From assembly GCA_012513365.1 (NCBI GenBank), contig JAAZCI010000082.1:1-32454 (forward strand): a DNA stretch of 32,454 bases, written 5' to 3'. How positions within the stretch are numbered: the stretch's first letter is position 1; the number at the start of each line of letters is the position of its first letter. The notes below the pieces were generated by a model. The model was not told the origin of the DNA. It made no database searches and saw nothing but the letters and a program-made list of their open reading frames with translations. Positions 8,226 through 28,554 of the stretch are shown here, piece by piece. The translations under genes were made by a program, and so were the position numbers. Origin of the DNA: Lysobacteraceae bacterium (GTDB lineage Bacteria > Pseudomonadota > Gammaproteobacteria > Cardiobacteriales > Wohlfahrtiimonadaceae).

Positions 8226-8528
8226 ATGACTAAATCAGAATTAGTACAGCGTTTAGGTGAAAAGTATCCTAACTACACCAACGCTGAAGTCGAAAAAGGG
8301 GTTAAAATTATTTTAGATCAGATCAGCGAAGCGTTAGGTGAAGGCCGTCGCATTGAAGTTCGCGGATTTGGAAGCTTCTCTGTTCGCTATCGTGCGCCGA
8401 AAACGGGCCGTAACCCTAAAACTGGCGATTCTGTAAAATTAAGCGGTAAATACGCATCACATTTCAAAGCAGGTAAACACCTCCGTGAAAGCGTAAACGA
8501 AAGCCGTCACGATTTTGACATTCAATAA
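8226..8528 (+). CDS. ihfB: Integration host factor beta subunit
   Basis: IhfB forms the IHF heterodimer with IhfA, a nucleoid protein that bends DNA sharply at specific sites. The 100 residues match the family (94-100). Typical features are the N-terminal helices MTKSELVQRL, the strand-arm region IEVRGFGSFSVRYR and the DNA-intercalating arm APKTGRNPKTG with its Pro (about 56-66). HFKAGKHLRESVN closes the fold. The HU/IHF alternatives are resolved in favour of IhfB by sequence and by position after rpsA. A TGGAGTG ribosome site lies 8 nt before the ATG. The 157-bp upstream gap is extremely A+T-rich and holds its own promoter in all likelihood, since rpsA has a terminator. Confidence 0.97.
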   Translation: MTKSELVQRLGEKYPNYTNAEVEKGVKIILDQISEALGEGRRIEVRGFGSFSVRYRAPKTGRNPKTGDSVKLSGKYASHFKAGKHLRESVNESRHDFDIQ

Positions 8529-26710: not shown

Positions 26711-27565
26711 TTACCAGCCGCGTTCTTGCATGCGCTCTTCTGGGTTTAATTTGCTAATTTCTAAACCGCGCATGGGCTCGCCTAAATCTTTTGAGAGTTC
26801 TGCGATGAGTGCGTAGTCTTGATAGTTTTCGGTGGCTTTAACGATGGCACGTGCGAATTTTTCAGGGTTTTCTGATTTGAAAATACCTGATCCAACGAAT
26901 ACGCCATCAGCGCCCAATTCCATTATCAGTGCCGCGTCTGCAGGCGTTGCAACGCCGCCTGCTGCGAAGTTTGCTACCGGTAGACGGCCGTGCGCTTTGA
27001 TCTGTAACAGCACTTCATACGGCGCGCCAAGATCTTTTGCGTAGGTCATGATTTCATCGTTATTCATATGGAGAAGTTTACGCACTTGCGCGTTCACTTT
27101 ACGCATATGACGTACCGCTTCGACGATGTTTCCGGTTCCGGGTTCACCTTTGGTACGGAGCATTTTCGCGCCTTCACCTAAACGGCGAGCCGCTTCCCCA
27201 AGATCGCGACATCCGCATACAAATGGGACTTTAAAATCGCTTTTTAAGAGGTGGAATTCTTCGTCTGCTGGGGTTAACACTTCACTTTCGTCAAGATAGT
27301 GAACGCCCATCGATTCAAGAACGCGCGCTTCAACAATATGGCCGATACGAGCTTTAGCCATCACGGGAATCGATACTGCACCTAATACTTCTTCAATAAT
27401 GCGCGGATCCGCCATACGAGCAACGCCGCCCGCTTTACGAATGTCTGAAGGAACGCGCTCTAACGCCATGACTGCTACTGCGCCGGCATCTTGAGCGATT
27501 TTAGCCTGTTCCGCATTGATCACGTCCATGATCACGCCGCCATTTTTGATAATTGAATCAGCCAT
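26711..27565 (-). CDS. pdxS: Pyridoxal 5'-phosphate synthase subunit PdxS
   Basis: PdxS builds PLP from ribose 5-phosphate, glyceraldehyde 3-phosphate and ammonia, normally supplied by the glutaminase PdxT. The barrel is very well conserved: [16 protein letters not shown] (9-24), [30 protein letters not shown] with catalytic Lys71 (Lys81 in Bacillus numbering), [24 protein letters not shown] with Lys139 (Lys149), [33 protein letters not shown], and the ending EERMQERGW. The 284 residues are about ten fewer than usual. The missing part is the N-terminal stretch (TERVKRGMAEM-type) that forms the helix contacting PdxT. An in-frame TAA seven nt upstream excludes a longer start. No pdxT is in the window. 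Many gammaproteobacteria use PdxA/PdxJ instead. Confidence 0.96.
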
Positions 27566-27909
27566 CTGTTTTTATTTTCCTCTGTAATCGAATGAAAGAA
27601 AGAGCGATATTGCTCAATAAAATCAAAAACCACTCATCATAGTAAAAGATCTATGGTATAGCGTCAATTGCGAGGCTTTGAAATTGTTAAAAAGAGTGAA
27701 AAATTGCATAGTTTGGTTTATAAGGGTGTTATCCGTAGAGTTATCCACAGGAAATGTGGATAAGATTGACAGTAAATCGCGGTGGAAAGAAGGGTAAATA
27801 TTATCGGATGAAATCGTCATTTCCTTTACACTATAATCGCCTTAAATAAATTGGCATGGAACGCATTAATCGCGGTATTAATAAAGACGCATAATCAATA
27901 AGGAGAGCT
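27566..27909. other. 344-bp region between divergent pdxS and rhtC
   Basis: It contains three DnaA boxes (27729-27763). A weak minus-strand promoter TTGACG-17-TACTAT (27639-27667) lies before pdxS. An unpaired TTGACA (27766-27771) and TATAAT (27832-27837) lie on the plus strand before rhtC. No open frame with a ribosome site is seen. Confidence 0.6.
27729..27763. promoter_or_regulatory. Cluster of three DnaA boxes
   Basis: TTATCCGTA (27729-27737, plus; two differences from the strong box), TTATCCACA (27741-27749, plus; perfect consensus) and TGTGGATAA (27755-27763, the perfect box on the minus strand) lie within 35 bp. The two perfect boxes face each other across 5 nt. No oriC-linked gene (dnaA, dnaN, rpmH, mnmG) is nearby, so a DnaA-titrating or reactivating site, or DnaA control of pdxS/rhtC, is more likely than an origin. 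Confidence 0.65.
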
Positions 27910-28554
27910 ATGTTTGCAATTTTACTCAGCATTATCGGGATTCATTTAATGGCGCTTATTACGCCCGGGCCTGACTTTTTCTTTATCTCGCAGACGGCGG
28001 CGCGTTTTTCGCGTAAAGAGAGTTTTAAAGCGGTGCTCGGGATCACCGTTGGGGTGATGATTTGGGCAGGGCTTGCGCTGCTTGGACTCCATTTTGTCCT
28101 CGAAAAATTTGTCTGGCTCCGCCATATTATTGTGATTCTCGGGGCACTCTATCTGAGTTATCTTGCGGTGCAGTTACTCCGTTCGGCCTTTTCTAAACAG
28201 GTTGGCGCGGAAGAGGTGAGTTTTTTACCAGAAGTGGGGCAACATCTCTTTTTAAAAGGGCTCTTGACCAATCTCGCTAATCCCAAAGCGATCGCCTATT
28301 TTGCCAGCGTTTTTTCGATGTTTGTTAGCGATGGCATGGGCACTGAGACGAAACTTGCGATCTTTGCGGTGGTGGCAATTGAGACGCTGATCTGGTTCTG
28401 CATTGTGATTCTTGTGTTTTCCCTTCCGGCGATGAAGCGGGCGTATAAAAAAGTGATGCGGGTGATCGATGGGGTGGCTGGGGTGATCTTTTCAGGCTTT
28501 GCGATCTACTTTCTCTATCAAGAGTTTAAAAGTTTCTTTTTAAATCAAGCGTAA
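27910..28554 (+). CDS. rhtC: Threonine/amino-acid exporter of the RhtB/LysE family, RhtC-like
   Basis: A 214-residue inner-membrane protein with six hydrophobic segments exports amino acids, threonine in E. coli RhtC. It follows RhtC closely along its length: ALITPGPDFFFISQTAARFSRKES (about 16-39), GITVGVMIWAGLALLGLHFVLEK, LKGLLTNLANPKAIAYFASVFSMFV (about 117-141) and MKRAYKKVMRVIDGVAGVIFSGFAIYFL. The ATAAGGAGAG ribosome site is strong. It starts 146 nt from the DnaA-box cluster. TATAAT (27832-27837) is a candidate -10 box. Substrate identity rests on similarity only. Confidence 0.9.
   Translation: MFAILLSIIGIHLMALITPGPDFFFISQTAARFSRKESFKAVLGITVGVMIWAGLALLGLHFVLEKFVWLRHIIVILGALYLSYLAVQLLRSAFSKQVGAEEVSFLPEVGQHLFLKGLLTNLANPKAIAYFASVFSMFVSDGMGTETKLAIFAVVAIETLIWFCIVILVFSLPAMKRAYKKVMRVIDGVAGVIFSGFAIYFLYQEFKSFFLNQA

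Follow-up and report, generated by a model that had tools for sequence, protein, structure and literature searches.

The window, that is the whole stretch of 32,454 nucleotides of Lysobacteraceae bacterium DNA that was analysed (contig JAAZCI010000082.1), contains a pdxS gene and an rhtC-like gene in divergent orientation, and three DnaA boxes form a compact core in the intergenic region between them. The features are the following (coordinates are those of the window):

26711 to 27565, minus strand: pdxS, pyridoxal 5'-phosphate synthase lyase subunit (NF003215, 489.5 bits, cut-off 395)
27566 to 27728, no strand: non-coding DNA on the box-III side up to pdxS, without a consensus Fis or IHF site
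27639 to 27667, minus strand: promoter-like site ahead of pdxS, a consensus match only, 61 bp from the core
27729 to 27763, minus strand: core of the type found in DnaA-reactivating sites (DARS); order on the minus strand box I, 5 nt, box II, 3 nt, box III
27729 to 27737, plus strand: DnaA box III, TTATCCGTA, two mismatches, codirectional with box II and 3 nt apart from it
27741 to 27749, plus strand: DnaA box II, a sequence match to the consensus TTATCCACA
27750 to 27754, minus strand: 5-nt spacer between boxes I and II, TTTCC in DARS orientation
27755 to 27763, minus strand: DnaA box I, consensus TTATCCACA, facing boxes II and III
27808 to 27837, plus strand: promoter-like site ahead of rhtC, a consensus match only, 45 bp from the core
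27910 to 28554, plus strand: rhtC-like threonine/homoserine efflux gene (252.6 bits, below the RhtC equivalog cut-off of 288)

On the plus strand the core reads TTATCCGTA-GAG-TTATCCACA-GGAAA-TGTGGATAA, and boxes I and II are the only exact DnaA boxes in the whole window. Over the 27 box positions it differs from an all-consensus core at two. An earlier note on this DNA had reported two exact boxes facing each other at 5 nt and a weaker third box 3 nt off, and both its description and its coordinates are correct. A DARS core consists of three DnaA boxes I to III, with box I opposed to boxes II and III at the spacing of DARS1 and DARS2, and exactly this arrangement is present here. Read on the minus strand, the boxes start at 27755, 27741 and 27729, which gives start offsets of 14 and 12. 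The same offsets separate the boxes of DARS1 (813107(+), 813121(-), 813133(-)) and of DARS2 (2969135(+), 2969149(-), 2969161(-)) in E. coli MG1655. According to the literature, the two E. coli cores are spaced alike, each with an opposed box I, and they depend on the head-to-head arrangement (PMC5742627, PMC10380432). The likeness to the DARS sites that the earlier note had drawn is even tighter than it claimed, as orientation and both spacings equal those of the two E. coli cores.

As the site sits between two divergent genes, it could be a DnaA-controlled regulatory site for the pdxS and rhtC promoters, so that bound DnaA would link vitamin B6 production or the export of amino acids with the cell cycle. 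The direct double box with 3 bp formed by boxes II and III, which E. coli DnaA favours at promoters under its control, e.g. that of purH (PMC11317965), would suit such a role. However, the core overlaps neither of the promoter-like sites, which are themselves predicted from consensus matches, and regulation leaves box I at the exact DARS gap unexplained. Moreover, the cores found across the class adjoin unrelated genes (priA, hemW, kdsB, rsmH, trkH, typA), and no DnaA boxes were detected at the pdxS or rhtC homologues in the other genera of the family that were examined. We consider promoter control rather unlikely, and the coupling of pdxS/rhtC transcription to DnaA put forward in the earlier note is unsupported, although DnaA bound at the core could possibly affect transcription as a side effect. 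In the family's other genera, pdxS and rhtC have different neighbours, the pdxS-rhtC order is not kept, and cores are found at other places of their own. Locus-level conservation was thus dropped as a test, and the comparison among relatives is limited to one more strain, G057, the second genome of the species. Here the 35-bp core with all three boxes is identical, while the remaining pdxS-rhtC intergenic region differs by about 10 substitutions as well as an indel of 29 bp, and the rhtC side accounts for almost all of these changes. The boxes are hence kept in the one close relative compared that has the same gene order, as the earlier note had asked of them. This invariance is compatible with constraint but does not reach significance by itself, as only about 10 substitutions fall in the whole intergenic region.

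The geometry of the core is found far beyond this locus. At the genomic base composition, a 27-base core of this geometry with at most two mismatches is expected 1.6e-6 times per genome. A random scatter of 56 exact boxes would give a facing pair at one given gap 0.0004 times, so that the earlier note was right to regard two exact 9-mers this close as improbable by chance. The window genome contains four exact facing pairs with a gap of 0-60 nt, against none for the reverse-read control. A search of 274 class genomes for three consensus boxes, each gap being free to vary from 0 to 20 nt, gave 18 matches, 17 of them with gaps of exactly 5 and 3. The exact sequence box I-TTTCC-box II occurs at 33 loci in GTDB contigs, among them those of Rhodocyclaceae, Stenotrophomonas, Thiohalobacter, Methylococcales and others, and box III (at most two mismatches) follows at gap 3 in 24 of 35 such occurrences, any other gap accounting for two at most. 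The core is present in 16 of the 18 genomes of the family and, with up to three mismatches, in 143 of the 299 genomes of a phylum sample, in which the pattern search also recovers the enterobacterial DARS1 sequence as a positive control. Reverse-read control patterns gave no match in the class, family and phylum searches. Because the gaps of 5 and 3 recur both in the free-gap matches and among the GTDB loci, the core geometry is selected for across the class. The exact 23 nt of box I-TTTCC-box II are also present on Bacteroidota, Firmicutes and Chloroflexota contigs (L195, L196, L189, L200, L177); the two Bacteroidota copies have a common right flank, which is a different one, and a third box follows at gap 3 in the copy from Acidaminococcus. 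A Methylococcales contig carries three tandem DARS-like cores 322 bp apart (L190:5634-6300).

The position of the core relative to the origin was mapped in G057, whose 2.17 Mb are assembled in 3 contigs, with GC skew sampled in 20-kb pieces. The skew turns positive near C2:62 kb with a cumulative minimum at 61,867, and beside this minimum lies the 890-bp intergenic region that separates rdgB/folK from brnQ, with 66% AT and a high density of DnaA boxes. From this we infer the chromosome origin to be the rdgB/folK-brnQ intergenic region (G057:C2:62551-63440, L113; ortholog G000:C182:3821-4707). The dnaA gene is not adjacent to this region, the surrounding 12-16 kb or so contain further scattered exact boxes, and genus g4 has the cluster as well. 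A second skew switch was seen between C2:1420 and 1540 kb (contigs C2, C1), so that the two replichores would differ in length (about 1.4 and 0.75 Mb), barring a rearrangement in the assembly. The window core corresponds to C2:346,405-346,439 and thus lies about 283 kb, or about 13% of the 2.17 Mb, from the putative origin, in line with the earlier note, which had placed the boxes away from oriC. An identity of the window site with oriC itself was rejected, as the skew minimum lies that far off beside the rdgB/folK-brnQ cluster.

The box cluster near the putative origin is also of interest for the idea that the window site serves DnaA titration only, its strong boxes binding DnaA passively without catalysing nucleotide exchange. 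Besides this dense cluster, the genome has an excess of TTATCCACA (55 copies versus 6 for the reverse-read control), as described for titration in E. coli (PMC12371093), and E. coli DARS1, DARS2 and datA themselves contribute to titration. Yet no fixed geometry is required for titration, while the class hardly departs from gaps of 5 and 3. Because these gaps are fixed, titration alone is insufficient, and it is unlikely to be the whole role of the site.

Besides the boxes, many cores of the class have sites for IHF and Fis at constant distances, which are counted here from the first base of box I toward the box-III side, with one mismatch allowed for the IHF consensus. An IHF consensus starts at +118 to +123 in 36 of 52 class core loci (12/15, 7/9 and 17/28) versus about 0.5 expected, and 24 of the 52 have an exact Fis consensus that begins at +87, versus an average of 0.17 per position. 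The 29 loci outside the set used for finding these positions include 17 with the IHF site, where 0.29 would be expected, and four with Fis at +85 to +88, where 0.16 would be expected. This DARS-like layout of core, Fis at +87 and IHF at +118 to +123 extends over the class in many neighbourhoods (priA, hemW, kdsB and others; loci L129-L144, L078-L087, L176-L208 and L215-L241), and it is a more notable by-product of the analysis than the window site. As the positions are fixed across lineages, they can serve as a search rule for sites of this kind in many genomes of Gammaproteobacteria. No IHF site was seen at +118 to +123 of facing pairs that are spaced otherwise, and 4-nt-gap pairs (rdgB-brnQ cluster, genus g4) as well as 6-nt-gap pairs (sohB-lemA, or within coding sequence) were rejected as DARS cores on this ground. 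One such perfect facing pair, AGTTATCCACA-GAAAGA-TGTGGATAACT, lies between sohB and lemA just ahead of priA (G000:C41:2935-2958, L008); besides its 6-nt gap, the third box is absent. DARS cores do occur ahead of priA in several other gammaproteobacteria.

In the window, the equivalent positions are about 27663-27677 for Fis (+87 to +101) and about 27631-27643 for IHF (+121 to +133). No IHF consensus was found here, the best intergenic match having two mismatches, of which 8.5 are seen per shuffle, and no Fis consensus is present at +75 to +105. The DARS2-type pair of IHF and Fis sites at a fixed distance on the box-III side is thus missing, and the earlier note had correctly seen no clear IHF consensus beside the boxes. 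Because neither consensus is found at the class positions, the window copy can be regarded as core-only, resembling DARS1. Enterobacterial DARS1-type loci carry an IHF consensus at +122 (L229, L230, L232, L233, L236), and E. coli DARS1 has there a degenerate IHF-like TTTTAACTGGTTA with two mismatches; DARS1 has been described as IHF-independent. These findings also bear on a datA-like site promoting DnaA-ATP hydrolysis. The window site is a box cluster away from oriC in the origin-proximal part of the chromosome, but minimal datA needs boxes in the same direction and an IHF site (PMC5742627), whereas box I is opposed and no IHF site was found. We regard this as very improbable, and the datA-type control of initiation timing raised in the earlier note does not fit. 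A chance cluster of DnaA-box-like words is practically negligible, since single near-matches are indeed common in the window (9 found versus 5.9 expected in shuffles), but the complete geometry is expected so rarely per genome, is identical in the second strain and recurs in family and phylum with no control match.

The window site is not the only core of its genome, the gene content of which may point to the order Cardiobacteriales. In the window species, a second core, ATACTCACA-ATACC-TGTGGATAA-CTC-TTGGGATAT, lies between mazG and kdsB, about 1.02 Mb from the putative origin. It is accompanied by a Fis site of exact consensus at +86 and, with one mismatch, an IHF site at +121. A core upstream of kdsB is syntenic in family genomes, in mazG-kdsB in genus g4 and in eda-kdsB in g2. 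Because it combines weak outer boxes with Fis and IHF sites, the kdsB-linked core of the window species follows the DARS2 pattern and, judged by these motifs, is DARS2-like. Further cores were found in other genera, each at its own place (rsmH, trkH, typA), and because other genera have cores at their own places, the extra copy is lineage-specific. A match in the polA coding sequence of G057 (three mismatches) is probably coincidental.

With regard to protein partners, the DnaA residues described for DARS are R399 and T435 in domain IV and R281, R285 and L290 in the AAA+ domain (PMC4245941, PMC5742627). The dnaA gene was found, and R281, R285, L290, R334 and R399 are conserved in the predicted protein, so the binding and interaction residues for DARS seem to be in place except T435, which is Ser. 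This replacement is conservative, yet we count it against a DARS function, as T435 is needed for DARS2 activity in E. coli (PMC4245941). A Fis-family gene adjoins dusB, and by inspection a gene for an IHF beta-like protein lies at 8226-8528 of the window. A DnaA-like match on contig C35 sits among phage-like genes and was rejected as Hda.

Taken together, the window site is probably a DARS1-type DnaA-reactivating site that promotes ADP release from DnaA. DnaA binding is likely, because boxes II and III match the double DnaA box with 3 bp that is preferred in vivo. As known from E. coli biochemistry, ADP-DnaA would occupy boxes I and II in head-to-head orientation, with box III stabilising the DnaA complex, and the DnaA-DnaA contact would expel ADP, whereupon apo-DnaA would leave and reload ATP. 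A DARS is also marked by a preference for ADP-DnaA in binding, by initiation that comes late once the site is deleted, and by additional initiations if it is present in multicopy. The window site would in this way give basal ATP-DnaA for the next initiation, and the kdsB-linked site an IHF/Fis-gated pulse of ATP-DnaA; the effect on initiation timing is what we infer from E. coli. Besides the Ser residue, it counts against a DARS function that the pdxS-rhtC location is not common to other genera and that box III (TTATCCGTA) is weak. From its motifs, the site is most likely a second copy of a known switch of replication timing, one that is particular to the lineage and located between pdxS and rhtC. 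We assign it to the known DARS kind because conservation of the DARS2 core has been described for E. coli relatives (PMC4245941) and DARS-like sequences are said in reviews to occur in many proteobacteria (PMC10380432).

On balance, we lean towards a wider view, in which DARS would be an old, relocatable module in Gammaproteobacteria (betaproteobacterial lineages included) and other Pseudomonadota. It would typically consist of core, Fis at +87 and IHF at +121, an order unlike that of E. coli DARS2, in which the closest Fis consensus comes only after the IHF sites. In the window family, genomes would combine one syntenic DARS2-like copy with genus-specific extras such as the window copy, so that replication timing would be retuned by moving or adding cores. 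The experimental DARS work cited here is on E. coli, and a distant gammaproteobacterial core together with a DARS2-like partner offers a ready test of generality, the question at stake being whether DNA sites reactivate DnaA as a general principle.

Among the known systems, E. coli promoters such as those of purH and polA have double boxes that resemble boxes II and III, codirectional, 3 bp apart and one of them a 7/9 match; in purH a 7/9 match is followed after 3 bp by a perfect box, and E. coli DnaA prefers such direct double boxes in vivo, DARS2 included (PMC11317965). However, these have been described as pairs only, and what distinguishes the DARS core is an opposed box I at a 5-nt gap. 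E. coli datA is alike in being an intergenic chromosomal DnaA-box cluster away from oriC, but its boxes all point in one direction and flank an IHF site, whereas box I of the window is opposed. DARS2, upstream of mutH, shares the core geometry, but its core boxes are weak and IHF and Fis sites are needed for activity, whereas the window site has no such sites. With the same consensus, IHF is found in DARS2 at +94 (minus strand) and +110 and Fis at +146, whereas the kdsB-linked core has Fis (+86) ahead of IHF (+121). The spacer is TTTCC in the window, ATTCC in DARS1 and TTTTC in DARS2. DARS1, intergenic between bioD and uvrB, has a different gene neighbourhood and a different box III (TAATACACA versus TTATCCGTA in the window), and, like several enteric homologues, it keeps the IHF-like sequence at +122 that the window copy lacks. 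Nevertheless, it has the same opposed box I and the same gap lengths (5 and 3), its boxes I and II are likewise strong, no exact IHF or Fis site lies beside the core, and the stretch from box I to box II is near-identical, TTATCCACT-ATTCC-TGTGGATAA in DARS1 and TTATCCACA-TTTCC-TGTGGATAA in the window.
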